Of a stretch of DNA of 64,000 bases, positions 5,728 to 62,043 are shown one piece after another. This stretch comes from Thermoplasmatota archaeon (lineage in GTDB: Archaea > Thermoplasmatota > Penumbrarchaeia > JASLWR01): assembly GCA_030740765.1 (NCBI GenBank), contig JASLWR010000005.1, positions 1 to 64,000 on the forward strand, given 5' to 3'. How positions within the stretch are numbered: position 1 is the first letter of the stretch; each line of letters starts with the position of its first letter. Both the position numbers and the translations under genes were made by a program. The notes under the pieces were generated by a model that saw only the letters and a program-made list of their open reading frames with translations, did no database searches and was not told the origin of the DNA.

Positions 5728-7056
5728 TCAGATAAGTCTCGTCTGCATCCTTGGTACACTTGGATACGTTTCCTGAAACATCAGGTCCTTTATCTCGTCG
5801 TCTCTCGCAAAGGTGTCGCTAATGGTACTGTCACAGGCTGCGAGGCGTATGATCCTGGTTCGCCCCTCCCTCCCGTATGATATCACGTTAGCATCTATTA
5901 TTCCCAGCGTGGAGAGTTCGGATATGAAGTCGCTTACTCTCCTCTTGGTAAGAGCTGAGATCCCTCTCGTTCTGCAGAGCTGTACGTATGATTCGTAAAC
6001 GCTTCCGGTGGTGATCTTTGTTCGCCCTTGCTCGTGCTGGACCTGAATTGCGAGAAGTGCTATCTTGAGGTGGATGGGAAGGGTTCTGACCACTTCGCTG
6101 ACGCTGTCGGTCTCGATCTTTTCCAGGGCCAATTTGGTGTGTTCTTCCACAATCCTGTCAGCTCCGCTCCTTTCTGCCACTTCCCCGGATACCATCAACA
6201 GTGAGAGGGCCCTTCTGGCATCCCCGTTATCCCTGGCCGCGTATGCAGCGCATAGATTGATTATGGATTGTGAGTGCACGCCGTCGTTGAAGGCTTTTTC
6301 CGCCCTGTGCTTAAGGATGTCCCGGAGCTGTACCGCGTTGTAGGGCTTGAAAACCATGATGTCCAGCGACAGAGAGCTGTTGACCCTTGCATCGATTAAA
6401 TTGAATACGTTTGCATCGTTGGATATGCAGATAAGGCCAGTTGTGGAATTCTTCAGGTCTTCGTTCAACCTCGAGAGGATATGTAGTACGTCGTCCCCGC
6501 TTTTCTTAAGCAGGTTGTCCACCTCATCAAGCACGATTATTACCACACCGTGATAATTCTCGATGCATTTCAGCAATTTTATTACAACCATATCGGTGGT
6601 GAGTCCGGTAAAAGGCAGCCGTTCCTTCCAATCGGTTATGAAGGTATTGGCGATATTGGTGAGTATGCGGTATTTTGTATCCACATGCTTGCAGTTGATA
6701 TAAATATATTTCACGTTTCGCTCGATCTCCGCCGCCACCTCTTCTCCGAGAACGTCCTTAACACCAAGTATTTTGTTCCGACCTCCCGATACCGGGACAT
6801 TCTGATCGGCAAGATCTTCAGTTAGTTCTTCGAAGAAATTGTTCAAAACCATACGTTTGTAGCTGGAGTTGATCTCCTTGATCTTTTTCAATAACTGCTC
6901 ACCAATGAATTTTGATGTAGCGGTCTTGCCAGTGCCTGGTTTTCCACAAATAAACACATTTGATGGAGTTTGTCCACCCAACGCGTCTGACAGCGCCATG
7001 GCAAGGCGATTGGTCTCCTCGTTTCTGTGAAGAAGGATCTTGGGCGTATAGCCCAT
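5728..7056 (-). CDS. cdc6: Orc1/Cdc6 replication initiator
   Basis: Origin-binding AAA+ initiator that marks origins and loads MCM. Walker A is GKPGTGKT (38-45), Walker B is VLDEVDN (near 174-180), sensor 2 is GDARRAL (near 288-294), and a C-terminal winged helix follows (TTGSVYESYVQLCR ... KRRVSDFISELSTLGI). About 50 residues inserted after the P-loop helix (63-112) make the AAA+ domain longer than usual. The longest frame starts at 7098, but AGGAGGT at 7064-7070 lies 7 bases before the ATG at 7056, and a TATA-like sequence near 7113 would put the transcript start near 7087; 7056 is chosen. It borders a 1-kb non-coding stretch with an origin recognition box, the usual arrangement for an origin-linked orc1. 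Confidence 0.9.
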   Translation of the reverse strand: MGYTPKILLHRNEETNRLAMALSDALGGQTPSNVFICGKPGTGKTATSKFIGEQLLKKIKEINSSYKRMVLNNFFEELTEDLADQNVPVSGGRNKILGVKDVLGEEVAAEIERNVKYIYINCKHVDTKYRILTNIANTFITDWKERLPFTGLTTDMVVIKLLKCIENYHGVVIIVLDEVDNLLKKSGDDVLHILSRLNEDLKNSTTGLICISNDANVFNLIDARVNSSLSLDIMVFKPYNAVQLRDILKHRAEKAFNDGVHSQSIINLCAAYAARDNGDARRALSLLMVSGEVAERSGADRIVEEHTKLALEKIETDSVSEVVRTLPIHLKIALLAIQVQHEQGRTKITTGSVYESYVQLCRTRGISALTKRRVSDFISELSTLGIIDANVISYGREGRTRIIRLAACDSTISDTFARDDEIKDLMFQETYPSVPRMQTRLI

Positions 7057-8057
7057 CCTTAGAACCTCCTTGTTCTTGAAGATAGACCTGAATGTCATGT
7101 GTGAATCAAATATATTTACATCTGGTAGTATGTGTTTCCCTCCTTCTTATCTCCTTGCCCACTCCCGGGCTGAATCTTTCACGATTCTCAGTGAAATAGG
7201 AATTAGTTCCGCATATTTAAATTATGCATATGGCTGGTTGCAACTAAATTATTTCGGAACGCCGGTATTCGGTTTTTTTTAACATTTTTACAATATTCCC
7301 GCTGATGGCGGTGATTACGGACTGCACTTGATCTTTTTAAGTCCTATTGTGTGTTGATAAATCGGCTTTAAACTCCCAATACACCCCCATTATGCTAACC
7401 CTTAATATAACTTTCCTTCCGACCCTGCAAACTTTTTTTTTGACGGCCCTAAATCAGGAAGCCCCCTACGTTTCCACTGGAAACATTTTCGGAAATAGCA
7501 GTACTGGCTATGCGAAAGTAACATGAAATCAAGCAATTAAAAATTGAAATGTTATCCCCGGACATAGAATTAAAATCATATATATGCATATAAAAATTAT
7601 TTCGGTTCATTCTCAGGATATTATTTTTTTTACCGAAAGCGGGGTCTATTTGTTATAATGTAAAAAATGAGAGATTTTTCGAAATTCCGAACTAATAGTT
7701 GTTAACGGAATTTTTTTCTTAGTAATATTTGGTTTTTTTATCTACTGGACACCTGTATTTTATATAGGATGGACAAGTAAAAGTGCGGTATGTTGAGATA
7801 TTGGTGATTTGTGATTTTCCTTTAAGCTTAAAGTAACATTTTAATAAAATCCCCTCATTACTCTACTTTGCTAGTGCATGTATACATATTATTTTTATGA
7901 ACAGTATTTCAACCTTTATAGAACAATCAGACCATGGTCGATGGTTTTTTTCTCCTGAAGATATGGAAAAGTATTTCAAGGATTTTTCATAGTTTATTGT
8001 TAATCATTCATCAAAAACTTATAACAAAATAATATTCTCCGATTTTTATTCATCATT
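7057..8057. other. Probable replication origin region (oriC)
   Basis: About 1 kb with no credible gene, rich in A and T runs, directly upstream of orc1. It holds one near-canonical origin recognition box (7461-7484) and several long T or A tracts (around 7271-7278, 7432-7441, 7625-7632) that could unwind. A degenerate box-like sequence with a CAGTG core may occur near 7185-7198. Archaeal origins usually carry two or more boxes flanking an A+T-rich unwinding element, and only one strong copy was found by eye. The promoter of orc1 occupies the first 60 bases. Confidence 0.65.
7461..7484 (-). promoter_or_regulatory. Origin recognition box (ORB)
   Basis: Read on the minus strand this is GTTTCCAGTGGAAAC followed by GTAGGGGGC. 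It matches the archaeal ORB: a TTCCAGTGGAA dyad plus a downstream G-run that orients Orc1/Cdc6 binding. It lies about 400 bp upstream of the orc1 start. Confidence 0.75.
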
Positions 8058-12600: not shown

Positions 12601-13613
12601 TAACAATATCCGTCCTGGGTCGTGAGATAGAGACTACCTTGTTTCCCTCGCTTGACATTGATTTGAGAGTGGCCAATATCGGTGGTGGGGATGCGAACGC
12701 CGAGTTGAAAAGCGGCCTTGCCGGTGTGAATAATAACATTCTCTGGAATATTGTAGCTGTCACTACCGATTATCCCTGGATGGACTGGATGGAAATTCGC
12801 TTCGATCTCACGATCGGAAGCAATGCCATTCCCGAAAATGCGGACGCAGATTCCATACGACTCTACTATATGAACTCCACCAATGGGAATTGGATCAAGT
12901 ATAATGACTCCAACGTAGAATTCATTCCCGGAAAATATATTTCGATCAATTTCACAAACCCGGAGGGTGGGACGGCAGAATTGATCCTCAGTCTTTATGG
13001 AAATATTCTGGATGTGATCTTTCCCACCGCCAATGCAGGTCCCGATCAGTCCGTTGACCGGGGAAGCACGGTAACATTTGATGGCAATGGAAGCTATGAC
13101 AACGTCGGAATCCAGAGTCTTGTTTGGACATTTAACGATGTGGGCGAAAAAATCCTTTATGGATTTGATCCGACGTACACCTTCAATAACTCGGGGAACT
13201 TTTCCGTAACGTTGAAGGTCACTGATACCTCAGGGAATGGGTATACCGATACCATGAACGTTGTAGTGAACAACACTATAGAGAAGCCGGTCCCGCCGGT
13301 TGAAGATGGCGAGGGCCAGTGGCTATGGGTAGTAATACTTGTTCTCGCAATATGTCTGATAGCTGTTTTCATAATCAGAGAGATCAAGAGCAGGAAGGAA
13401 GAACAGAGAAAGTTTGATGAGTTCTTCAAAGAAGGGAGGGAGCCTGATAAAGCGGTTTTGGAGACGGATGATAGAGACGTTGACAGCTACGTGGATATGT
13501 TTACCGTGGGAGGATCGAAAAAGGACAAGGGCGGCCGTGAAAAGAAGGTCGATAGCCTGCCCGACGAGACCATCGGCGGTATGAAGATACGAAAGCCCGG
13601 TAGTAAGAAATGA
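9645..13613 (+). CDS. Large membrane-anchored surface protein: PQQ-like beta-propellers, PKD domain
   Basis: A 1322-residue exported protein. An N-terminal signal/anchor (RSILMVAISMLLIGVTMAGLI) is followed by about 390 residues of PQQ/YVTN-type blades with repeated phrases such as GDTVYFGSLDGYFYAVD, a CARDB-like beta segment (DPTPYEGELVEIEVIVKNND), a second propeller, an Ig-like region beginning NAPKGIIDSPASM, and a PKD domain (ANAGPDQSVDRGSTVTFDG). One transmembrane helix (WVVILVLAICLIAVFII) and a charged cytoplasmic tail of about 80 residues end it. Propellers of this kind usually bind ligands or partner proteins outside the cell; no catalytic residues are evident. GAGGTA precedes the ATG. 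Its stop overlaps the start of the next gene (ATGA), so the two are translationally coupled, although their roles look unrelated. Confidence 0.85.
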   Translation: MQRVLRSILMVAISMLLIGVTMAGLIREDYRFQDSANDVVINDDATSDVGEPVIRSTSGNSWSMFGYDQTNSFNYPNAAPETNDVIWNANFAADFSASPAVIDGLIYVGGTDYYLYCIDANTGEEVFKIHLPSQVVSSPCVVGDMIYVGCRDRNLYAFNRETQNEEWKFTTGGDVDSSPKVVGDTVYFGSLDGYFYAVDTITHSLVWKYWCGEGYMVKSSPAISGNRLVFGSYNEDGSKGNITCLDLNGFQDGNDGYNGEGNTSETAGDVLWQYTPLKGVIGSASIMGDSVFIGSEDGKLHCLGLSDGSLLWDAATGDSIKSCPTPVPETNSVIFGSWDGFLYNLNASTGTPIWKEQLSGFISAPATVADGKVYVGDLSYNLYCFDLIGWGNLSTEKIFQIYTGLYMRCRAAPVIYNGILYQSCENGNNPNNGKIIAVGRPDVKVFDILFDDPTPYEGELVEIEVIVKNNDTIECEMDMEISYVGHPIKELIASEHLTVAPLSLASINISWKARSGTWSIFVKVLNITPEDTTNTLFHLNAQVLTVSSPPTKEWNFFMGGVEHECYSAIAVDTNREEGSAFPGGSLFQPVISKGFLLVTTTAGSLLAFDQYDLASSHKWRVDFPDPALSSASVLGDKIFVPYEGFKLRCFDLMDSGNLLWTYDNPGIEDPIAPVMAKHGIVFVTTESGQVFAIDDDDGELLWQTDIGANSSTIPLLFGDNFTVLDDSGKIYLLDLYDGTILATKVLGSTLPMTPAYFDDRIFVVFTDGDIVSYDPVSNTSTLLLELADTPTTCVVKVSEDGRLALGTVSGVRILDEKYAPVGIIEGVGSLNSPLVGGPGRCYFIDSTGTLYGMNMSSTIPSEERFLWNMTLGASTNGTPVVWEGKVYISTAGGEIYALGAANNAPKGIIDSPASMAVYKEIDEIEFSAASSNDPNRDELRYKWTSTLDGLLYDGPLSAFKTYLSPGLHEIKLTVDDQRGGKDHKIITISVLGREIETTLFPSLDIDLRVANIGGGDANAELKSGLAGVNNNILWNIVAVTTDYPWMDWMEIRFDLTIGSNAIPENADADSIRLYYMNSTNGNWIKYNDSNVEFIPGKYISINFTNPEGGTAELILSLYGNILDVIFPTANAGPDQSVDRGSTVTFDGNGSYDNVGIQSLVWTFNDVGEKILYGFDPTYTFNNSGNFSVTLKVTDTSGNGYTDTMNVVVNNTIEKPVPPVEDGEGQWLWVVILVLAICLIAVFIIREIKSRKEEQRKFDEFFKEGREPDKAVLETDDRDVDSYVDMFTVGGSKKDKGGREKKVDSLPDETIGGMKIRKPGSKK

Positions 13614-14629
13614 GCGACAATTACACCCTCCGTGCTAAAAGGTTTATAAAATGGAGGCATTTACCGGATTCCATGAATCCCGTACTGGAAACTACTAGGT
13701 ATGTTATGGAGAATTCGGACCACGTAAAAATAAATATGGACCGGCTCCATGAGTTCTCGGACAATTTCAGAGCAAGTGACTCACGGCATTGGCTTGCGGA
13801 TGCTCCCTTTGACCTTGCGACCCTTAGCGTTCAGGAGAAACTGCATTTCCTATTCGTGTTCAATTCTATTAATTTCTGTTACTGGGGGGAGCCGAAATGG
13901 ACTTTGACTTATAAAAATAAAAAATATGACGGTGCCTGGGGAATGGTAGTTGCCTTTGGGAGGGCTATTGAGGAAGGAAAATCCCTATTGGACTCTAGTT
14001 ATCTTGCGACACTTTCGAATGAAGAGCTTTCATATCTTTTCAGGGGGAATGTCCCGATACCGCTGTTCGGGGAACGCCTTGACATACTCAGAGAGATCGG
14101 CTCTACTCTAAATGAAAGGTTCGGCGGCTCCTTTAGTAGCATAATAAACGCGGCATCAAACGACGCTCTTCTTTTACTCGAACTGATCGTGAAAAATTTT
14201 CCTTCATTTGCCGATATATCGTACTATAAAGATCAAAAGATTTTCTTTTATAAACGAGCTCAGCTTCTGGTCTCGGACATTTACAATCTTTTTGAGGGTC
14301 GAGGATTCGGAGAATTAAAAAACATTGAAAAACTAACTGCCTTTGCCGATTACAAGATACCTCAGGTCCTGAGAAAAGCGGGAATACTCGTTTACTCGGA
14401 GGAGTTGGCCGGGAAGGTGGACCAAATGAAGCTGATTCCCGGGGGCAGCCCGGAGGAGATTGAGATCCGGGCGAATACCATATGGGCAGTGGAGTTGATC
14501 GCCAAACGCCTTAATGGAAGAAATTTACACATTGAGCCGATCTATGTCAATGATCATTTGTGGCTCTTGGGGCAGAACAAATCTCCTGATGATCTGCCGT
14601 ATCACCGAACCCGGACTATTTACTACTGA
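13610..14629 (+). CDS. Queuosine salvage protein homologue (Qng1, DUF2419)
   Basis: 339 residues, close to the usual family length. Members are queuosine 5'-phosphate nucleosidases that release the queuine base for reuse. Family-typical blocks are present: FNSINFCYWGEPKWT, then FRGNVPIPLFGERL, the late FADYKIPQVLRKAGIL (the DYxxPQ segment), EIEIRANTIWAVELI and the closing LPYHRTRTIYY. It overlaps the upstream PQQ gene by 4 bases. Archaea modify tRNA with archaeosine rather than queuosine, so this gene is unexpected: it could salvage queuine from the environment or act on a related 7-deazaguanine nucleotide. No tgt, queuine transporter or archaeosine gene is visible nearby. Family call is firm; substrate is inferred. 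Confidence 0.82.
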   Translation: MSDNYTLRAKRFIKWRHLPDSMNPVLETTRYVMENSDHVKINMDRLHEFSDNFRASDSRHWLADAPFDLATLSVQEKLHFLFVFNSINFCYWGEPKWTLTYKNKKYDGAWGMVVAFGRAIEEGKSLLDSSYLATLSNEELSYLFRGNVPIPLFGERLDILREIGSTLNERFGGSFSSIINAASNDALLLLELIVKNFPSFADISYYKDQKIFFYKRAQLLVSDIYNLFEGRGFGELKNIEKLTAFADYKIPQVLRKAGILVYSEELAGKVDQMKLIPGGSPEEIEIRANTIWAVELIAKRLNGRNLHIEPIYVNDHLWLLGQNKSPDDLPYHRTRTIYY

Positions 14630-28067: not shown

Positions 28068-28796
28068 CTACTTGGTCTTCTTAGCTTTGAATTTTTTTAC
28101 AAAAGATGCCACATCTTTGGCGGACAGTTTGCTGAATTCTTTACCCTTTTCCATGATCCCTATTTCGATAGTCTCGCTGTCGGGTTCCTTTTCTGTGGCG
28201 ATTTCAAGGGCTTCTAATCCCAGTTCGATAGCCTTTCCTTTGCTCATTCCGGGCTTGAACTTCTCCTCGAACACCTCCATGACAGTGTTCCTACCGGCAC
28301 CTATACTGGCCGCGTTGTATGCTATTAGGGCGCCGCTGGGATCGGTCTCGTATAGGTGCAGACCCTTGTTATCCACTCCGGCGATCAACAGGGCCGTTCC
28401 AAAGGGTCTTACCCCGCCGAACTGTGTATAGTTCTGTTTGTAATCACATATACGTTTTACGAGATTCTCAACGCTTGTCATCTCATTGTAGGAAATTTTA
28501 TGGATCTGAGCTTCTACCTGGGCTCTGTCCACCAAAACCCTGGCATCGGCAACGAGACCGGATGTGGCACATCCTATATGTTCGTCAATCTTGAATATCT
28601 TTTCAATGGAACTGGGTTCGATCAATCGGGAGCTGATCCTCTTGTCGATCATCAATATCACGCCCCGGTCGTACTTCAATCCAACCGTTGTTGTCCCTCT
28701 TTTCACCGCCTCTCTTGCGTACTCCACCTGGAAAAGTCTTCCATCCGGTGAGAACACGGTAATCGCTCTATCATATGCCATATTGCTGGGTTGCAT
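28068..28796 (-). CDS. psmA: Proteasome subunit alpha
   Basis: 242 residues. The alpha-type N-terminal helix is present (MAYDRAITVFSPDGRLFQVEYAREAV split over the first 35 residues), which forms the gate of the 20S core and carries the docking site for AAA unfoldases. Further landmarks are KRGTTTVGLKYDRGVILM and the NLVKRICDYKQNYTQFGGVRPFG loop. The catalytic beta subunit is not in this window. The C-terminus is Lys-rich (FVKKFKAKKTK) and does not show the HbYX motif, which is expected of the ATPase rather than of alpha. A short palindrome lies 41-57 bases upstream of the start. Confidence 0.95.
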   Translation of the reverse strand: MQPSNMAYDRAITVFSPDGRLFQVEYAREAVKRGTTTVGLKYDRGVILMIDKRISSRLIEPSSIEKIFKIDEHIGCATSGLVADARVLVDRAQVEAQIHKISYNEMTSVENLVKRICDYKQNYTQFGGVRPFGTALLIAGVDNKGLHLYETDPSGALIAYNAASIGAGRNTVMEVFEEKFKPGMSKGKAIELGLEALEIATEKEPDSETIEIGIMEKGKEFSKLSAKDVASFVKKFKAKKTK

Positions 28797-35612: not shown

Positions 35613-35686
35613 GCCGCCGTAGCTCAGTTGGTGGAAGCACACGGCTGTTAACCGTGAGGTCACCGGTTCGAATCCGGTCGGCGGCG
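35613..35686 (+). tRNA. tRNA-Asn (anticodon GTT)
   Basis: 74 bases. Acceptor GCCGCCG/CGGCGGC with discriminator G, D arm AGCTCAGTTGGTGGAAGCA, anticodon stem CACGG/CCGTG around CTGTTAA, T arm ACCGG-TTCGAAT-CCGGT. CCA is not encoded. A TATA-like TTTTATATATG lies about 40 bp upstream. Confidence 0.94.
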
Positions 35687-35716
35687 CATATTATTAAATT
35701 TCCATTTGGTATTCCT

Positions 35717-50934: not shown

Positions 50935-51234
50935 TCAGCTACGCTTGAGTTTTATACCCTTTGGAAGGAAGATACCCAGTATAAGCAATATAAAAAAACA
51001 GATCAGAATAAAGTAAAAGAGGACCACTTCATCCGAGGGCCAATCAATTTTATTTTTTACCACGTTCACGAGAATGAAAAAGGCCGCTATCACCAGTGTG
51101 AAACCAAAGAGCTTCCCTGTATTCTTTACGGTCAGGGGCCAGTTCCTCCTGGGATCCGGGAATTTCAACCCAATGAACACTAGGATCACAATAAATGCTA
51201 TTATCATCCAATCGGTCCATATCATAATTATCAA
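50935..51234 (-). CDS. Small membrane protein coupled to the AAA+ ATPase
   Basis: 99 residues with three hydrophobic helices (MIIAFIVILVFIGL, LFGFTLVIAAFFILVNVV, VLFYFILICFFILLILGIFL) and short charged loops. Not recognised. Its ATG overlaps the stop codon of the AAA+ gene, so it is the last gene of that operon and probably a partner of the membrane ATPase. It converges with the JAMM gene with a 15-base gap. Confidence 0.7.
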   Translation of the reverse strand: MIIMIWTDWMIIAFIVILVFIGLKFPDPRRNWPLTVKNTGKLFGFTLVIAAFFILVNVVKNKIDWPSDEVVLFYFILICFFILLILGIFLPKGIKLKRS

Positions 51235-54200
51235 TCCCAGTCATCGTCCACGTCATTTCGTCCTCCACCGTACCGCCGCTTACCACGCAGGTCTTCTTCC
51301 TCCCACCCATTCTCCGGTTCATCATAGTCATCTTCTTCCTCTTCATCGTAATCATCATCCCACCCCTCATCATCCTTTTTACCGCCATCGTACCGGCTCA
51401 CCCGGTATGACCTCTCACCCTCACCGCGTCCGCTTTTTTTCGTCAGTCCAATTCCCTCTCCGATTCTCTTGTGGACCTTCCTCTCGTAATGCGACTGCAG
51501 CTCGATGTAGTCCTTCTGCATCTTCTTCGAGATGGACGGCTTCAGAATGTCGATCATATCATGGAAATCGTCCATGGTTATGGAGGTTTTCTTCTTCGTT
51601 GAAAGCGCCCGTTTCATTGCCTGTGTTGCGCATTCTCGGCAAAGATTCGCAAGGTCCGCTCCGGAATACCCGTCGGTTAATTCCGCAATCTCTCTCACAT
51701 TGATCTTTCCCCGCGTAGGCTTGCCCTTCAGGTGTATCTTCAATATCTCCACCCGATCCCGGGGTCCCGGCGGCGGCACGTACATCACTTTATCGAACCT
51801 GCCGGGTCTTAACAACGCAGGGTCTACCAACTCGGGCTTGTTTGTGGCTGCGATTATTATGATTCCCGCGAACTCATCCATGCCGTCCATCTCGGAAAGC
51901 ATTATGCTCAACAGCCTCGGGGTGACGTCGTCGGCGCTGTAGAAGTCCCTTCGTTTTGCTATTGCGTCTATCTCGTCCAGGAACAGAAGGCAGGGCTGTT
52001 TTTCCCGAGCTATCTTGAAAAGGTCGTTTATGAGATTCTCGGATTCGCCGTACCATTTCGACATCACGTCGGAGCATTTGACCCCGATCATCTCCACCTT
52101 CAGTTCGGTGGCTATTACCCGCATCAACAGCGTCTTCCCGCATCCAGGGGGACCGAACAGTATCATGCCCTTGGGTGGCACTACTCCATATTTTTTTGAC
52201 ATTTCCGGCCTTAATAGCGGGCCTATCATTGAGTCGGTTATCTCACTCTTGACGCCCTTGAGCCCCCCAACATTTTCGAAAGACGATTTCCGGAAGCTCA
52301 TCATATCCGATATCCTTGTTCCCACCCCAACGGTCTTCTTGTCCGTGTAGAATTCGGAGTAAGCTCCCCTCAGGATTAAGCCTAAATTGATTGCGAGCAT
52401 AAGGACTGGGAATACAAGAACGTAAACCAGTATATACTTCCATGAAAAGATAATATCTGTCTTGAAATCGGCGAGGAACATTCCTCCGATAGTAGCAGCA
52501 AGCAGTATACCCCCTGCGGTGAATGAATATATGAACACTTTTTGGCCATTGCTTCTGGATTCGATCTTTTTCTTGATAAGATATACCACCAGCACCATTA
52601 GAACCCATATCAATATCTGCATTATTGGCACCATGGAGGTCATATAGTCCTTTATGAAACTGGTCATGGCAGCGCCGTCGATATCTCTTATACTGCCGAA
52701 AGCATTGAAGTAACTAGTTGGTGAAAATATTTGATCGCCGGGGACCCTGGAGAATGTTGTTATACTGTTCTTTTCGGTTGCGTACGGTGATACTATGAAC
52801 GATAGGTTGATCACGTTACCGGTGGCAGTCACAATGGAGAGGAAAAGGCCTGATAAGACAGTGACTGTAATACTTGTAAAGAGAGAGAAAAGGAAGATCG
52901 AGAAAACAGGAACAAGGAACGAGATTCCGAAGGTGGAAAGAAAAACTGTCAGGAACGATAGATAACCGAATTTCCAGTTGAACAACGAGCATAGAGTGAC
53001 AATGAGGGCGAAAATCATGAAGAGCAGCCCGAACTCCGCTGTCTGAAATGCTGTGGAGCCTATGGCAACGAAACTAACGAATATTAGTGCTATGAAAGGG
53101 AACCTGTACCCGATAGCTCCCGTAATGAGAGCGATTATCATAACCATCCACCACGGGTAAAAGGGACACCACAGGGCTCCGAAGAATCCCAGGAATCCAA
53201 ATGCTACGGCTGTGCTGATGTTCTTTTTCCGCTCTATGTTCCTGAACCGTTTCTCAAGATTGGTTACGATTTTCCCGTATCCCTTCAATTCTACCTTTTT
53301 CTTATCCTGCGCGGTTTCTACCTCCCGACGGCCCCGATCCAAAAGATAGAAAAAGGATATTGGGAACATAAGGGTCACTATGACAAGGGTAACCATTACC
53401 TTGAGACTGAAGAAGTCCATGATGTCTAATCCGGTGGATATGTCGTTCACGTCGTAATTGATCAAGAAAGTAAAATCCGTGGTATTCCCGTCGATGGTCA
53501 CCGTTATTTCTTTCGGATCGTAACCGCTCTCCAATGGCTCTACTTTTATGTTGTATTCACCATCCCTGATGTCCGGGGGTGTCCAGAAAAGGCCGTTTAC
53601 AGTTGATCCTGAAACTCGATATCCCGCTGAGTTGAACACTGTGACATTTGCCTCTACATAACTTGATCTTACCTCGTCATAGGCCCCAACGATTATACCG
53701 TATAGATACGTTTCCTCGGGCACCGTTACATCGTAACTGTATTCTCTTGAGGTCATGGGTGTCATGTACTCATCGTAGGCGGTGACACGGAAGATAACCG
53801 AGGTGTTTCCCGGGTACCGGGGAATATTTGTCTTGTATGAGTTGTCGTCGATCCTGATCAAGGAGTTCGGCCAGTTTATCTCATTTAAATTGCCTGGAAG
53901 TTGGAACGATACGTTGATGTCGGCCCGGGTGATTATCACACCTGGCCAAATTCCCTGTATCCTCACCTCAACGGTGTCATTGACAGTGGGGGGGACCGGA
54001 CCATAGGTGAGGTTCATATTTTCCTTGAAAGAGGGGAATCTCCAGGCGATCTTGGGTGCTACCTCGTAGTAATAAGTTTGCGATTCTAGCTGTCGGACCC
54101 CGTCATACACAGAGACGTAGAATGAAACATTCGTGTTGCCCGGATACCCGTAAAGCTCGACAAAGGCTTCGGTCTCGCTGGTGAGGTTCATCTCATATGC

Positions 54201-54518
54201 GCCGGAGGATTTGAAATCCCCTCCCTTGATGTCCAGCCAAATGTATGCCCATAATAGCTCCGCACCGTTTCTGGATTGAATGCTTACGTTCACTTCCTCA
54301 TATTCAGAAGGTATTGCAGGAGAGTATGAAAGTAAGATATTATCGTCGAAATTATCGTTTATAAAAACGGCTCCTTGTGAGGTCTCGATGACGGAGGTGA
54401 ATACCAGGGTGGAAATGAACCCCAGCAGGATCAGCGGTAGTATTTTGTACTTGTGACAATGTTCGCGGAATCGCGGCCCCAAAGGGGACCGATTCTGCTG
54501 AATCGATCTGTATTTCAT
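51231..54518 (-). CDS. Membrane-spanning AAA+ ATPase with extracellular beta-domains
   Basis: About 1095 residues in an unusual order. An N-terminal signal-anchor (ILPLILLGFISTLVFTSVI) leads to about 320 extracellular residues of Ig-like beta domains with many N-x-S/T sites (YSPAIPSEYEEVNVSI, GPVPPTVNDTVEVRI). Around eight or more membrane helices follow (roughly 385-690). The cytosolic part (about 740-1000) is a single classical AAA+ domain: GPPGCGKTLL (Walker A), LLFLDEIDAIAKRR (Walker B), an Arg finger in DPALLRPGRFDKV, and GYSGADLANLC. The tail is Asp/Glu/Trp-rich. It resembles p97- or FtsH-type unfoldases but lacks a protease domain. It could extract or remodel envelope proteins in response to an outside signal. 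ATG 54518 is chosen over GTG 54527. Confidence 0.85.
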   Translation of the reverse strand: MKYRSIQQNRSPLGPRFREHCHKYKILPLILLGFISTLVFTSVIETSQGAVFINDNFDDNILLSYSPAIPSEYEEVNVSIQSRNGAELLWAYIWLDIKGGDFKSSGAYEMNLTSETEAFVELYGYPGNTNVSFYVSVYDGVRQLESQTYYYEVAPKIAWRFPSFKENMNLTYGPVPPTVNDTVEVRIQGIWPGVIITRADINVSFQLPGNLNEINWPNSLIRIDDNSYKTNIPRYPGNTSVIFRVTAYDEYMTPMTSREYSYDVTVPEETYLYGIIVGAYDEVRSSYVEANVTVFNSAGYRVSGSTVNGLFWTPPDIRDGEYNIKVEPLESGYDPKEITVTIDGNTTDFTFLINYDVNDISTGLDIMDFFSLKVMVTLVIVTLMFPISFFYLLDRGRREVETAQDKKKVELKGYGKIVTNLEKRFRNIERKKNISTAVAFGFLGFFGALWCPFYPWWMVMIIALITGAIGYRFPFIALIFVSFVAIGSTAFQTAEFGLLFMIFALIVTLCSLFNWKFGYLSFLTVFLSTFGISFLVPVFSIFLFSLFTSITVTVLSGLFLSIVTATGNVINLSFIVSPYATEKNSITTFSRVPGDQIFSPTSYFNAFGSIRDIDGAAMTSFIKDYMTSMVPIMQILIWVLMVLVVYLIKKKIESRSNGQKVFIYSFTAGGILLAATIGGMFLADFKTDIIFSWKYILVYVLVFPVLMLAINLGLILRGAYSEFYTDKKTVGVGTRISDMMSFRKSSFENVGGLKGVKSEITDSMIGPLLRPEMSKKYGVVPPKGMILFGPPGCGKTLLMRVIATELKVEMIGVKCSDVMSKWYGESENLINDLFKIAREKQPCLLFLDEIDAIAKRRDFYSADDVTPRLLSIMLSEMDGMDEFAGIIIIAATNKPELVDPALLRPGRFDKVMYVPPPGPRDRVEILKIHLKGKPTRGKINVREIAELTDGYSGADLANLCRECATQAMKRALSTKKKTSITMDDFHDMIDILKPSISKKMQKDYIELQSHYERKVHKRIGEGIGLTKKSGRGEGERSYRVSRYDGGKKDDEGWDDDYDEEEEDDYDEPENGWEEEDLRGKRRYGGGRNDVDDDWD

Positions 54519-54531
54519 GGTTATCACTTAC

Positions 54532-56028: not shown

Positions 56029-59000
56029 CTAATCGTAAAAATCATCATCCGGTTCTTCGTCTATCCAACCGCTCATTTCATCCACATCGTCGGCCGCCAT
56101 CCCGTATGGCTTTTCACTGTTACCCCGCTCTTCTTTCATTCGTTTGCGCTGATCCTTCCAGTCCTTCTTTCTCCTCTTGGATTCAACTTCATCCGCACCG
56201 TCATCCGTTTCACCCTCCGGGCTTTCATCAAGCCATCCACCCATCTCCTCTATGTCATCCTGGGCATCCTGATAACGTCCTCCACTCCCTCTTCCTCTCC
56301 CTTTTTTCCCCCTATTCCCCTTTCTCCCTTTACCGCGTTTTGAAGATTTTTTATTTTTTCCCGTTCTTCCACGCCCCTTCGAGGGAGTGCTTTCGTTACT
56401 AAGACTTTTTTCTTCCTCCTCCTCCTCTAACATATCCGAGGTCACCACTGTGGCCTCTTCCTCCTTCTCACTGTATTTCTCGACGTCATCCGTTTTACCT
56501 GCGCTTTCCTTCTTTTCGCTGATCGATACGTTTTCTTTCTTACTGCCTTTCACCCATTTTTTTGCCTGGCCTGTGCGCACCAGTACAAAAATGATTATTA
56601 TGATAAGCAAAATAAGAAGTATGAAGAGTATCAACGGCATGGAATCGCTGAATTCCTGAAGGAAGGGCGTCTCGTTCTCCACTTCTATGACCGACGATTG
56701 TATTCTCTCATTACCGTACTCGTCCACTGCCTTTATCTGGTAGGTATGCTTGCCGTTGTCCTCCACGCCTGTGGTCCATATGTACCAAAATGAGTTATCA
56801 GCCTCGTCGTAACCCATCTCTTTCCACCCGGCCCCTTCGATGTTTATGTACATTCGCGAGGCGTTATCATTGTTCTCAACCCTGAATTCGATCTGGCTGT
56901 CACCCTTCACAGGTACATCGTCCAGAAGGACGCCGGGTCCCCTGTTGTTGAAGTTCACCATTACCATGCCAACATTGGATTTGCCAACGTAGTCCCTTAC
57001 GGTGATGATCAGGGTGTGGGCCCCATCCGGATATTTCGTAGTATCTATTGGGGCTTCATAGAGGCCGGTAACGGGATTGATGAAAACGCTTATTGGAGTG
57101 CTGTTATCCACCGACATGGCCACTGACTCTACTGATACAGTGTCGTAACAGTAGGCTTTCACAGTATTTGTCCCGGTCAGGTGGTCTCCGGCCCCTGGTG
57201 AGACCAATGTCAGCTCGGGGACCGAATTGTCCACATTTACTTTTATGGCACGGGTGGTGACATGCCCGGCTTCATCCACAGCCATCACTTCGATCTCATG
57301 GGTTCCATCGGTGTAATTTCCGGTATCCCAGAGGTTTGGCCCCGTGGAGTTTATCTTCACCCATCCGGTCTTGTCCACATTGTACTGGATATTGGTGTCA
57401 TAATGATCTTTTGAGCCGATATCTATCTCGGCAAGGCCTGTGAGATACGCGTTTCCAGCGGGTTTCCTTATATCAAGGGTTGGGAAGTTCCCGTCGACCC
57501 TGAATCCCACCGGAGCCAGCGTGACGCTGTTCAGGGATCCATCATATGCGGTAACGGAAACTTCATACCCCCCGTCTGTGATTCCATAAAGGGATTGGGT
57601 GTACTCGTAGTAATTGGATACGGAATTGTGTGTTGCCTGCACCTTTTTTGCGTGGGGAGATCCAGTGAAGATGTATAGGCTCACCTTATCAACGCCAAGG
57701 CTGTCCGAAGCCAGTATCCTGAATGTCATGGACCCTTCCACGAATTGATCCGGTGTGGGGCTGTGAACCGTGCATTCCGGGAAACCGTTGTCCACTGTCA
57801 CAGTGATGGTCTCCACCACGGTGTGCCCTATTGCATCCCGGGCTCTTATGGATATGCTATGCAATCCGTCTCCGGTCCTTGATGTGTTCCACGGGACGCC
57901 GATGTCCCGCCACCCGGAGGAATCCACATTATATTCTGTGGGCAGAGGATACGAATCGATGGTGGTGACGTTCATGTCCACGCTTCCGTTAAGGTAATAT
58001 TGGTTTTTCGGGCTGTTTATGACTAGTTTAGGCGGCGTGTTGTCCACGTTGAAGAATACCGGTCCGTCGCTAGCCACCTTGCCTGAAAGATCATATGCCA
58101 GGGCGGAAATCGTCTGGATGCCGTCCTCAAGGATCACAGTGGTATCAAGGCTGTACTCGTAGTAACCGCTCTGGCTGTTGAAGGTAGCGTTCACCAGCTC
58201 GTTGTATATGTCCAGAACGACCAGGGAGATACCCACCGTATCGCTGGCCTTCACCTTGAAAGTCATAACTCCCTGCATATACTGGTTATCATATGGTGTA
58301 TGTATCTCGCAAGTGGGTTTCCTGTTGTCCACGGTTACCGTAATGGAATGACTGGTCGAGTGGCCCGCGAGGTCCCTGCCCCTGATCTCAATGACGTGCT
58401 TTCCGTCGGCTATCAAGGTGGTATTCCAAGCGATCGAGACGTCCTTCCATCCGCTGGAATCTATATTGTATTCAAGAGATCTTGGGAATGACTCCCCGCT
58501 CAAAGACGTGTTAAGTTGAACTGAACCCGAGACGATATCACCCTCCAACGGACTGTTAATCAGTAGCATTGGGGCATTGTTATCCACCTGAAAATCAACT
58601 TGCGCCGATATCGTACGGTTGCCAGCAAGGTCCAGGGCCATTATTGTTGTTGAATAATTCCCGTCGTTTACACCGTTTGTATCAAAGATGCATTCGAAAT
58701 AACCTGTGCCAGAGTTATAGCTCATAGAAGTGTTCAATATCTCCGCTTGGGTCCCAGAATCCAGAATAATCGCCCTGACGCTTTCAAGTCCCACTTCGTC
58801 TGAGACTATGGCTCCAAGGGTATATATTCCCTCAATGAACTGGTTTTGAGAGGGAAGGTTCAATCTACATTCCGGGTTATGATTGTCTATGGTTATTATG
58901 ATACTCTCCAGGACCTCGTGCCCAGCCTTGTCCCCTGCTCTGATCCTCATGATGTGGTCTCCGTCAGGGAACAACCAGGTACTCCAGTTATCAGAACTAT

Positions 59001-62000
59001 TCACCCAGCCTGAACTGTCTATGTTGTATTCAAGCAGGTCCAGAAATGCATCGGATACTGAAATATTAAGTGTAAAGGTACCATAAATAATCTGTCCGTC
59101 CGTTGGCTTATAGATAGTCATTCTCGGTTCGTTGTTGTCTACATTGAAATCCTTGGTCGCAGACGGTCTGCTATGACCTGCTTTGTCATGAACGTATGCT
59201 GTGAACCGGTAGCTGCCGTCTGGCAGGTTGGCCGTTCCCAGTACTAGTTCATAGTAGCCGGAATCCATATTGTATCCCATGGATGTGTTTGAAACCAACT
59301 CTGCTCCTGTCTCATTTATTATGGTGCCGTTCACGCTTTGGATTCCGATCGCGTCCATGGCAGTTACCCTGAACGAGTACAATCCCTCTATGTATTCACC
59401 GGATATTGGGGTTATTACAGTTGATTGGCTGGGTGCGGTGTTGTCCACTATGAAGTTTATTTGCATTGTTGACTCGGCCCCGTAAGGGTCTTTGGCATTA
59501 ACGTGGAGAACGTGGGCCCCGTCCAAGTAAAGGGACGAATCCAATAGAGCGCCGAATTCAGTCCCGGAGACAAGCGACATGTTGAACCAAGCATTTGCAT
59601 CCACCCGGTAACGTGGGTTTGTATCGGTATCTGGGATCCCGTCGGGATCGCTAATGTTCGCGATGATCTGGTAGTTACCCGAAACAATATCCCCCGCAAC
59701 GAGGTTTTTCATTATTATATCCACATCGTTGAATATCTCAATATTGCCTGATTGGCTACCCAGGTTTCCAGCCTTGTCGTAGGCGTTAACAGTATGCGTG
59801 TAAACCCCCGATACGAGTCCGGTTGTGACCGTTACGTTGTCCGATGTGTAGTCCCCGTCGTAAGCCACCTCATCGTTTCCCGTTCCATCATCCCTCATGG
59901 GCACCTGATTGGCACCACCAATGTTGGATGCATCGAGGTAAACATTTCCCAACCCGGTATCCTCATCGGAACAGTTGGCCACCACGTATATGGAATACCC
60001 GTCCTGGGCCTTGACACGGCCTGGGGGGTAAGAGGTATTCACCCTGCCCACGGAAGGTTGTACGTTGTCCAGTCGCACTGTGTACTGGGTTCCGTTCATG
60101 TTACCGGCGCGATCGGTCCCTTCTACCTGGAAGATGATATCTCCCGAATCCAGGCTGTTAACTGTAACCAGATCGGAGCCATAAATGTCGTCATCGGCTT
60201 TTCCGTCCGCGTGCAATCCGTCATCGAACATGTTGACCTTGAGGGCGATTCCGATGGAGGACAGGTCTGCTTGGATGGAGTCGATCCCGTGGGGCTGTTC
60301 GATACCCAGGGTGCTGGCTCCGAAACTCTGGATCACCTGCGAAACATTGTTGTAGATTGCATACAGGTCGGTGGAGGATGGTGCGAAGTAATATTTGCCC
60401 CCTATCGATGAATTGGCTATGCTCATGACATCGAACTCGGTGGTGTACTTGTAGGAAGCTTCGGTGGGATCGAGATAACCCGATGCGGTGGCATTAGTCC
60501 CTTGAGGCCACATCCCAAGGCCGATAGTGAAGACCGGTATACTGGCATTGATCAATCCCGTTCGTGTCCGTTCGGGCGAGCCACCAGGGAAATTGGCTGT
60601 GGTCTTGGCGTTCACCGGATTTGTATCGAGTTCTCTCTGAATGGAAGGATATGCTCTCATAGGCGAGTCCCATATACAACCTCCGCTCACGGTCCAGGTC
60701 TGTCTACCGGCGCCGTTTGGTGCCCCGGGACAGTATGTTTCCGAGCCGGTTTCGTACCGGTTTCCACCAAGGGTTCCACCGGTATCGTTCCCATCCGTCA
60801 TTGCGATGACCACCGGAACCGCTTCCTCTCTTCGGTTGTTGATGGCATACTGGATTCCAGTACCTATGGTGTCCCAAATAGGTGTGTTGCAGCTGGGTTG
60901 GCCGAGATTCGTCGTAAGATGCAGACCGTCATCCCTGGTGATTATATATTTCGAGACATTGCGTCCGGTGGACGTGTAACCTGTACCCTGTGGATCGTTA
61001 TAGGTTTCGGACATTGTTAGGAAGGTGGAGTACTGTTTGACGTCTTCCAGGGGCCAGGGTCCTTGTCTGTCAAAGGATACTATTGCGCACCTGTCATTAT
61101 CCGCAAGCTGGTCCAGGAAGGTGGAGGAAGCGTATTCAAGGTCATCCCATTTCATTCCCCCGGAGCCGTTCGAATCCCGCATGGATCCGGAGTTATCCAG
61201 AACCAGTACCACGTCCAGAGGTTTTCTCTCGACAACATCCTCGATCAATATCTTGTAGTCAAGCGCCTTGGCCGTTACCCTTATCACATCACCATTCTTG
61301 ACGGCTACTTGCCCCGCCGGTAGCATGGTGTCGATCTCCAGTATCGTGGGTTCGTACTGATCCACGTTGCATGCTGCTGTCACGTTTCTAAAGTTTCCCT
61401 TCGAATCGGTGGCATGAACATAGGCTGCTCGGTAACCCCCGCCAACAGTTACGTTTACGAGAGCAGTGCCATATGTATTATCGTTGGGTGCCCCATCGTT
61501 ATGAAGTCCATCGTCGTACATGGTGAGGCCGGGGTCGTCCCCAATCATAGAAGCATCGCAGCGGACGGAACTAATTGAGGACACCGATTCGATAACCTTT
61601 GCGATAATGGTAACCTTGTCTCCAGGTTTTGCAGTGTTTTGTCCAGTGGGATATAGCGTTGTTGCATTGGTGATCTGAGGGCCAGAATTATCGAATTTTA
61701 CCGGGATCGATGTAATATCGTTTGTTGTATCCCCCGTGGAATCATATCTTATTATATGCCGCCCGTCGCTCCATCCCGATGTATTGATCTGGAAAGACCA
61801 TGTAGGACCGCCTGCCATGGTAGCTATAAGTATACCATCTATACTCAATTCAACCTTATCGGCATTTGTGGAATTACACCTGAAGTTCACCACACCGGTC
61901 AGTATGTCCCCCGATTCCGGGAGATATGGAGTTACGGGATTCGCACTCGTGTTTCCAGTGAATAAGCCCAAGGCGGCAAGTCCGCTGATAACGATCATTG

Positions 62001-62043
62001 TTGTCATGGCCATCGCAGACCATTTACTACTCATGTTGAACAT
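56029..62043 (-). CDS. Giant VWA/Ig-repeat surface protein with charged cytoplasmic tail
   Basis: 2004 residues. Signal peptide (MTTMIVISGLAALGLFTG), an Ig-like domain, a VWA domain with a MIDAS site (DVVLVLDNSGSM) near residue 280, then about 1300 residues of Ig-like repeats in pairs of about 190, each with phrases like NIDSSGWKD, DGKHVIEIRGRDLAGH and TVTVDNRKPTC. A membrane helix (MPLILFILLILLIIIIIFVLV) follows. The cytoplasmic tail of about 190 residues alternates acidic and Lys/Arg/Gly-rich blocks and holds two copies of a DD-[IV]-x-EM-x-GW-[LI]-DE motif, one at the very end. GGAAGGG precedes the ATG at 62043. It heads the operon with the VWA and AAA+ genes; the tail is a possible contact to the ATPase. 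Confidence 0.87.
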   Translation of the reverse strand: MFNMSSKWSAMAMTTMIVISGLAALGLFTGNTSANPVTPYLPESGDILTGVVNFRCNSTNADKVELSIDGILIATMAGGPTWSFQINTSGWSDGRHIIRYDSTGDTTNDITSIPVKFDNSGPQITNATTLYPTGQNTAKPGDKVTIIAKVIESVSSISSVRCDASMIGDDPGLTMYDDGLHNDGAPNDNTYGTALVNVTVGGGYRAAYVHATDSKGNFRNVTAACNVDQYEPTILEIDTMLPAGQVAVKNGDVIRVTAKALDYKILIEDVVERKPLDVVLVLDNSGSMRDSNGSGGMKWDDLEYASSTFLDQLADNDRCAIVSFDRQGPWPLEDVKQYSTFLTMSETYNDPQGTGYTSTGRNVSKYIITRDDGLHLTTNLGQPSCNTPIWDTIGTGIQYAINNRREEAVPVVIAMTDGNDTGGTLGGNRYETGSETYCPGAPNGAGRQTWTVSGGCIWDSPMRAYPSIQRELDTNPVNAKTTANFPGGSPERTRTGLINASIPVFTIGLGMWPQGTNATASGYLDPTEASYKYTTEFDVMSIANSSIGGKYYFAPSSTDLYAIYNNVSQVIQSFGASTLGIEQPHGIDSIQADLSSIGIALKVNMFDDGLHADGKADDDIYGSDLVTVNSLDSGDIIFQVEGTDRAGNMNGTQYTVRLDNVQPSVGRVNTSYPPGRVKAQDGYSIYVVANCSDEDTGLGNVYLDASNIGGANQVPMRDDGTGNDEVAYDGDYTSDNVTVTTGLVSGVYTHTVNAYDKAGNLGSQSGNIEIFNDVDIIMKNLVAGDIVSGNYQIIANISDPDGIPDTDTNPRYRVDANAWFNMSLVSGTEFGALLDSSLYLDGAHVLHVNAKDPYGAESTMQINFIVDNTAPSQSTVITPISGEYIEGLYSFRVTAMDAIGIQSVNGTIINETGAELVSNTSMGYNMDSGYYELVLGTANLPDGSYRFTAYVHDKAGHSRPSATKDFNVDNNEPRMTIYKPTDGQIIYGTFTLNISVSDAFLDLLEYNIDSSGWVNSSDNWSTWLFPDGDHIMRIRAGDKAGHEVLESIIITIDNHNPECRLNLPSQNQFIEGIYTLGAIVSDEVGLESVRAIILDSGTQAEILNTSMSYNSGTGYFECIFDTNGVNDGNYSTTIMALDLAGNRTISAQVDFQVDNNAPMLLINSPLEGDIVSGSVQLNTSLSGESFPRSLEYNIDSSGWKDVSIAWNTTLIADGKHVIEIRGRDLAGHSTSHSITVTVDNRKPTCEIHTPYDNQYMQGVMTFKVKASDTVGISLVVLDIYNELVNATFNSQSGYYEYSLDTTVILEDGIQTISALAYDLSGKVASDGPVFFNVDNTPPKLVINSPKNQYYLNGSVDMNVTTIDSYPLPTEYNVDSSGWRDIGVPWNTSRTGDGLHSISIRARDAIGHTVVETITVTVDNGFPECTVHSPTPDQFVEGSMTFRILASDSLGVDKVSLYIFTGSPHAKKVQATHNSVSNYYEYTQSLYGITDGGYEVSVTAYDGSLNSVTLAPVGFRVDGNFPTLDIRKPAGNAYLTGLAEIDIGSKDHYDTNIQYNVDKTGWVKINSTGPNLWDTGNYTDGTHEIEVMAVDEAGHVTTRAIKVNVDNSVPELTLVSPGAGDHLTGTNTVKAYCYDTVSVESVAMSVDNSTPISVFINPVTGLYEAPIDTTKYPDGAHTLIITVRDYVGKSNVGMVMVNFNNRGPGVLLDDVPVKGDSQIEFRVENNDNASRMYINIEGAGWKEMGYDEADNSFWYIWTTGVEDNGKHTYQIKAVDEYGNERIQSSVIEVENETPFLQEFSDSMPLILFILLILLIIIIIFVLVRTGQAKKWVKGSKKENVSISEKKESAGKTDDVEKYSEKEEEATVVTSDMLEEEEEEKSLSNESTPSKGRGRTGKNKKSSKRGKGRKGNRGKKGRGRGSGGRYQDAQDDIEEMGGWLDESPEGETDDGADEVESKRRKKDWKDQRKRMKEERGNSEKPYGMAADDVDEMSGWIDEEPDDDFYD

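Follow-up and report, generated by a model that had tools for sequence, protein, structure and literature searches.

A Qng1 homologue in a Thermoplasmatota archaeon with putative genes for queuosine synthesis

Textbooks place the tRNA modification queuosine (Q) only in bacteria and, by uptake, in eukaryotes. Here we describe a homologue of the queuosine-salvage enzyme Qng1 (DUF2419), encoded in the first 64,000 nucleotides (hereafter the window) of contig JASLWR010000005.1 from a Thermoplasmatota archaeon (assembly GCA_030740765.1), an organism whose genes make it a very likely producer of queuosine. From Q or queuosine 5'-monophosphate (Q-5'-MP), Qng1 releases the vitamin-like base queuine, the only cleavage known for it according to a 2024 study, which has de novo Q synthesis performed by bacteria only (PMC11130926). 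Likewise, in a paper from 2026 Q belongs to Bacteria and Eukarya, while Archaea have archaeosine (PMC13329287). Whole or incomplete queuosine pathways had been reported in 2021 by Castelle et al. for 34 genomes of archaea, including 12 from DPANN, and Methanosarcinales are among the groups named; DUF2419 does not occur in the main text of that paper (PMC8204110). Archaeal queuosine pathways have thus been predicted before. A search of the accessible queuosine and archaeosine literature, outside which most subscription papers lie, returned no published queuosine pathway in Thermoplasmatota, no work on queuosine with Aciduliprofundum, to which the Thermoplasmatota species A. boonei belongs, and, with key Qng1 papers also outside it, no Qng1 in a Q-making archaeon.

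Qng1: family, active site and gene start

By profile, alignment and predicted fold, the open reading frame (ORF) in the window (Table 1) is a genuine full-length Qng1/Q_salvage protein, in an archaeon, as the preliminary description had proposed from the sequence alone. It matches Pfam PF10343 at 283 bits (cut-off 25, E 3.3e-84), with residues 75-339 aligned to positions 8-285 of the 285 in the profile, and contains both the FADYKIPQ and the YHRTRTIYY blocks. A phmmer search against the PDB returned five distinct sequences, all of them DUF2419/Qng1 (best E 3.8e-79), and alignment gives 42% identity to the Sphaerobacter enzyme and 35% to the human one over 281 columns. The AlphaFold model, built from the window protein together with 13 homologues (mean predicted local distance difference test score, pLDDT, 88.5), superimposes on Sphaerobacter structures 7u07 and 7u91, the latter a Q-5'-MP complex, with a template modelling (TM) score of 0.94 by target over 319 columns at 41% identity. 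Qng1 accounts for all 11 structures matched at E <= 0.001; next come, at E >= 0.016, DNA glycosylases, NTHL1 and MutY among them.

The catalytic residues K215 and D247 are both retained. Neither outcome that the preliminary description had named as a refutation, a placement outside DUF2419 or the loss of catalytic residues, was seen. The position of the former is conserved in 14/14 comparable rows and that of the latter in 13/14, L004 carrying E, counts from which L003 and L005 were left out; both are corrected in alignment A2, whose 14 rows all have the lysine of K215 and nearly all the aspartate of D247. None of the 14 departs from the block FCYWGEPKW either. D298 and W302 are active-site residues of the Sphaerobacter enzyme (PMC11592518), and while W302 is retained as W318, N314 replaces D298. 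Asparagine is found at this place in at least five bacterial or DPANN homologues, including those of Uhrbacteria, Thermodesulfobacteriota, Clostridia and a Woesearchaeote, and is therefore no mark of this archaeon; N314 as a sign of a new substrate is weakened accordingly. As an enzyme, the window Qng1 is an ordinary new member of a known family, and the stronger point is the apparent queuosine synthesis of its genome, with a pathway that is shared across its phylum.

The genome carries a second Qng1 (210 bits), which is 33% identical to the window copy and keeps the K, D, D and W active-site positions, including the KRAQ lysine and the FADY aspartate. It has YHLTVTTAY instead of YHRTRTIYY, and FADYQ instead of FADYK. 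Its contig, C66, also holds gyrase genes, a MiaB-like-B tRNA methylthiotransferase gene and a type I GAPDH gene. In the tree of Qng1 sequences the second copy does not come out as a recent duplicate of the first, though with a long-branch warning.

The coding region of qng1 probably begins at M22, giving a product of 318 aa with a promoter of its own. This start is favoured because the equivalent methionine is the first residue of homologues L004, L006, L009, L010 and L011, because pLDDT falls below 50 over residues 1-20, and because of the spacing of a putative TATA box, TTTATAAA, whose centre lies 26.5 nt upstream of the ATG. Such a spacing suits an archaeal TATA box that directs leaderless transcription. 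The octamer occurs seven times in the window where 1.8 copies are expected, a number that none of 100 shuffles reached; one of the other six copies is located inside the qng1 coding region. The gene had initially been described as coupled to that of a surface protein. Indeed, there is a 4-nt ATGA overlap between the end of the upstream PQQ/PKD gene and the first-reported start of the ORF, but this overlap is probably not where qng1 starts. With a start further downstream and a TATA box of its own, the coupling becomes doubtful, and translational coupling in particular is unlikely in view of the start-site evidence.

Queuosine and archaeosine genes in the same genome

The assembly consists of 158 contigs that add up to 3.59 Mb; its completeness is 93.7% and its contamination 1.81%. 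The Pfam profile PF01702 finds a single tRNA-guanine transglycosylase (TGT) in it, which is of the bacterial type: it scores 409 bits against the TIGR00430 equivalog (cut-off 306.75) and against the archaeal TgtA model it stays far under the threshold. An arcTGT was not found by PF01702 in the 93.7% complete assembly. QueA passes two models (NF001140, 368 vs 324; TIGR00113, 334 vs 267), QueC scores 211 (cut-off 150), and QueF-II passes narrowly (89.3 vs 86.9). QueH matches Pfam PF02677 at 200 bits, with no NCBIfam model matched. Together with a QueD-like protein, these genes coexist with a homologue of the archaeosine synthase ArcS, so that the contrast drawn in the preliminary description, of a Q-related enzyme in a domain that uses archaeosine, does not hold for this genome. 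Of the genes it had named, the bacterial-type Tgt and QueH were found, and QueG was not. Taken together, these are close to a full gene set for queuosine, which this archaeon very likely makes itself.

The ArcS homologue scores 332 bits, under its curated cut-off of 440 and within the range of many relatives. On contig C79, a prepilin-peptidase (FlaK-like) gene separates it from the bacterial-type tgt. That archaeosine had been lost, given that the sole TGT is bacterial-type, was an idea we dropped after finding this homologue one gene away from tgt.

Do these genes belong to the archaeon? Genes for Cdc6 and the archaeal proteasome alpha subunit (340 bits, cut-off 287) flank qng1 on one contig, which by these markers is archaeal. 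The GC content of qng1, 0.445, departs from the average over 32 window ORFs by no more than about 1.2 standard deviations. In a similar manner, tgt lies near the ArcS homologue, and queCD is found some 4 kb from an archaeal glycerol-1-phosphate dehydrogenase gene (430 vs cut-off 413). As judged from their gene content, the contigs of qng1, tgt and queCD are thus archaeal. The genes for queA and tgt sit on separate contigs in this genome, and those of QueA (4.3 kb) and QueH (9.5 kb) are short, with no archaeal equivalog over its cut-off among the proteins scanned.

The window further holds a gene for tRNA-Asn (GUU), a candidate Q34 target. Towards its end, one gene encodes a protein of 1098 aa that has a CDC48/PAN-like AAA domain close to its C-terminus and a long N-terminal part that matched no named family in the scan made; a 2004-aa ORF adjoins this gene.

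Table 1. Features in the window, and two loci on other contigs of the same genome
Feature	Position	Strand	Basis or remark
Qng1/queuosine salvage protein (PF10343), ORF	13610..14629	+	339 aa from first-reported start
Likely true coding region of qng1, M22 start, 318 aa	13673..14629	+	homologue starts, upstream TATA box
TTTATAAA, candidate archaeal TATA box for leaderless transcript	13643..13650	+	octamer enrichment, spacing
K215 codon, equivalent to Sphaerobacter K199	14252..14254	+	alignment; 7u5a is the K199C mutant
D247 codon, equivalent to Sphaerobacter D231	14348..14350	+	alignment; 7ulc is the D231N mutant
N314 codon, place of Sphaerobacter active-site D298	14549..14551	+	alignment; N also in bacterial homologues
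Upstream PQQ-propeller/PKD surface protein gene, 1322 aa	9645..13613	+	ORF list, profile match
Cdc6 gene	5728..7098		
Archaeal proteasome alpha gene	28068..28796		profile match
tRNA-Asn (GUU), candidate Q34 target	35613..35687	+	tRNA call, sequence read
Gene for 1098-aa protein with AAA domain	51231..54527	-	
2004-aa ORF	56029..62043	-	
Second qng1 (L002, contig C66)	1342..2313	+	
tgt, prepilin-peptidase gene, ArcS homologue (L113, contig C79)	8805..13201		

Relatives of Qng1 and distribution of the pathway

Thirteen further Qng1 loci (L003-L015) were found in DPANN archaea, Candidate Phyla Radiation (CPR) bacteria, a Thermodesulfobacteriote and a Clostridia genome, at 40-54% identity, in a scan of genome contigs by exact short patterns that catches close relatives and under-counts other groups. 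Plasmids yielded five distant records, which carry the annotation "queuosine salvage family protein"; no Qng1 relative was found in phages, and none was confirmed on viral contigs. A phylogeny of DUF2419, as the preliminary description had advised, places the window copy among the DPANN and CPR homologues, but this 19-row tree resolves neither its backbone nor the direction of gene transfer. A TGT was found in nine of the 13 Qng1-bearing genomes, each of the bacterial type by length and key residues (9/9), with one of them, L097, aligned without its zinc cysteines. Among 71 scanned ORFs out of the 92 neighbouring these loci, the farther ones having been left out, the commonest of the families listed was NUDIX (3/71).

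Within the phylum we compared 57 genomes, the present one and 56 relatives. QueH is found in 23 of them and 17 have a member of the QueF family, which passes the cut-off in 16; ArcS matches at E <= 0.001 occur in all 57, with 15 over the curated cut-off, and bacteria match too. By our reading, a bacterial-type Tgt is present in 25 genomes, plus a fragment in G006; QueA is present in 25 of these 26, and according to the coordinates queA and tgt lie within 160 bases of one another in 18/25. In two of these tgt frames (L024 and L026, in genomes G048 and G043), which encode 602-605 aa, about 240 residues extend the N-terminus. A tree built from 36 Tgts separates 24 of the 25 phylum sequences from those of bacteria, DPANN and CPR at a branch supported at 100/98. 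The 25th, L022, groups with a Woesearchaeote, and QueA was not found in its genome, G024; it was probably acquired by a separate transfer. Given this clade and the distribution of its genes, the pathway seems to be of old standing in the phylum and passed on mainly by vertical descent, and Qng1 looks like a sporadic addition.

Codon usage provides a weak sign of Q in vivo, which we keep outside the main evidence. The sample comprised 41 of the 57 genomes (the window and 20 regions that have Q genes, and 20 that lack them; the remaining 16 lay outside it), of which G038 and G031 were dropped for too few codons, so that 39 were used, with G017 counted as Q-positive although no bacterial-type Tgt was found there. 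The preference for NAU over NAC, corrected by the other two-codon boxes, is higher with Q genes by 0.365 log units (family-permutation p 0.026; 0.047 with a TTT/TTC control, 0.065 with GC3).

Role of the enzyme and comparison with known systems

So what would Qng1 do in an archaeon with a pathway of its own? We consider it probable that here it serves an organism that makes Q34, cleaving Q-5'-MP that arises from the turnover of tRNA, either its own or taken up. QueD, QueC and QueF would lead to preQ1, which the bacterial-type Tgt would insert at G34 of GUN tRNAs, and QueA and QueH would complete Q on the tRNA. Degradation of tRNA, own or taken up, would yield Q-5'-MP, from which Qng1 as an N-glycosidase would cleave queuine; this could then be re-inserted by a relaxed Tgt, be converted to preQ1 by a QueL-like lyase, or be released. 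The sequence itself supplies the family membership, the retained lysine and aspartate, the fold, the pathway genes, and the archaeal contigs of qng1, tgt and queCD, while we infer the activity of Qng1, its substrate, the presence of Q in tRNA and the fate of queuine.

Several observations weigh against this proposal. The QueD-like gene, which adjoins queC, reaches only 73.5 bits against an equivalog cut-off of 89.25, and QueG was found in none of the 57 phylum genomes, this one included, though QueH would cover its step; the assembly is moreover split into 158 contigs and 93.7% complete. Qng1 is present in 1/57 genomes and QueA in 29/57, so the pathway plainly runs without Qng1. Outside the phylum, no recurrent queuosine gene was seen among the 71 neighbouring ORFs scanned (first 25 of 103 families listed), and four small archaeal genomes, all DPANN (L004, L005, L008 and L009), carry Qng1 with no TGT of any type found; either these genomes are incomplete and lack the gene by chance, or Qng1 has a role apart from re-insertion into tRNA. 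Finally, C158 and V233 suit the Tgt of Z. mobilis to preQ1, where V and G at these positions suit the eukaryotic enzyme to queuine (PMC3660597). The Tgt of this genome has C158 and L233, not the queuine pattern V158/G233, and direct re-insertion of queuine is therefore not predicted. The same applies across the phylum, with C158 in 25/25 aligned bacterial-type Tgts and G233 in 0/25. However, a Bartonella Tgt with preQ1-type residues uses queuine when it is supplied (PMC11570991).

The same reaction may instead act on Q from a different source, a tentative but serious alternative. The archaeon would live on bacterial necromass, and the Q or Q-5'-MP that it imports would be the source from which Qng1 frees queuine, in addition to its own synthesis or in place of it. 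Salvage is the known role of Qng1 (PMC11130926), its patchy presence in the phylum suits an accessory gene, and its nearest homologues are those of DPANN archaea and CPR bacteria. Against this stand the de novo queuosine genes of the genome and its preQ1-type Tgt. Salvage from decaying biomass, as first suggested for this gene, thus stays possible but is not needed, because Q nucleotides can come from the cell's own tRNA turnover.

A shift in substrate appears unlikely, but is kept in consideration because a preQ1-type Tgt leaves the return of queuine to tRNA unexplained. Qng1 would in this case free the base of preQ1, preQ0 or archaeosine from the 5'-monophosphate, in a form directly usable by a preQ1-type Tgt or an archaeal TGT. 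The idea of a new substrate, also raised in the preliminary description, gains slightly from the preQ1-type residue C158, which the genome's Tgt shares with those of most Qng1-bearing relatives, and from the ArcS homologue; moreover, a transporter beside a bacterial qng1 moves preQ0 and preQ1, which was called unexpected (PMC11130926). N314 in place of D298 fits as well, though weakly, as bacterial homologues share it. The invariant FCYWGEPKW block and the single known cleavage by Qng1, of queuine from Q or its monophosphate, speak against a shift. In a broader and similarly doubtful version, one preQ0 pool would feed two 7-deazaguanine marks in tRNA, archaeosine at G15 and a Q34 that the cell synthesizes de novo. 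The two divergent Qng1s would recycle 7-deazaguanine nucleotides from tRNA turnover; for at least one of them the substrate would be the 5'-monophosphate of preQ1, preQ0 or archaeosine instead of Q-5'-MP, and the base would pass straight to a transglycosylase. That the Q genes are bacterial contamination is highly improbable and for qng1, tgt and queCD largely refuted, for despite 158 contigs, 1.81% contamination, a type I GAPDH gene on the second qng1 contig and the short QueA and QueH contigs, archaeal marker genes lie beside each of those three loci, Tgt falls in the 24-member phylum clade and not with bacteria, and the GC content of qng1 is close to that of the other window ORFs.

If these genes work as we propose for an archaeon making and recycling Q34, many members of an archaeal phylum would be Q-makers, with a Tgt clade holding 24/25 of the phylum sequences. 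This genome provides a testable and moderately interesting case of archaeal queuosine. Like the pathway predicted by Castelle et al. for DPANN and some Euryarchaeota, it combines archaeal QueA and QueH with a bacterial-type Tgt (PMC8204110). The present genome adds QueF, two Qng1 genes and an ArcS homologue, and the Tgts of the phylum form a clade separate from the DPANN Tgts sampled in our tree. As with QueK-QueL of C. difficile and the Tgt of C. trachomatis, queuine would be freed by hydrolysis of a Q nucleoside or nucleotide (PMC11570991, PMC11130926), but the hydrolase belongs to a family other than that of QueK, and the Tgt is not of the queuine type. The enzyme itself shares with Sphaerobacter thermophilus Qng1 and human QNG1 (7ugk) its fold, at a TM score by target of 0.94 for the former and 0.86-0.88 for the latter, as well as a full-length alignment, the counterparts of K199 and D231 and the C-terminal YHRTRT block. 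It differs from both in its archaeal host, in N314 for D298, and in coexisting with a preQ1-type Tgt and genes for de novo synthesis.

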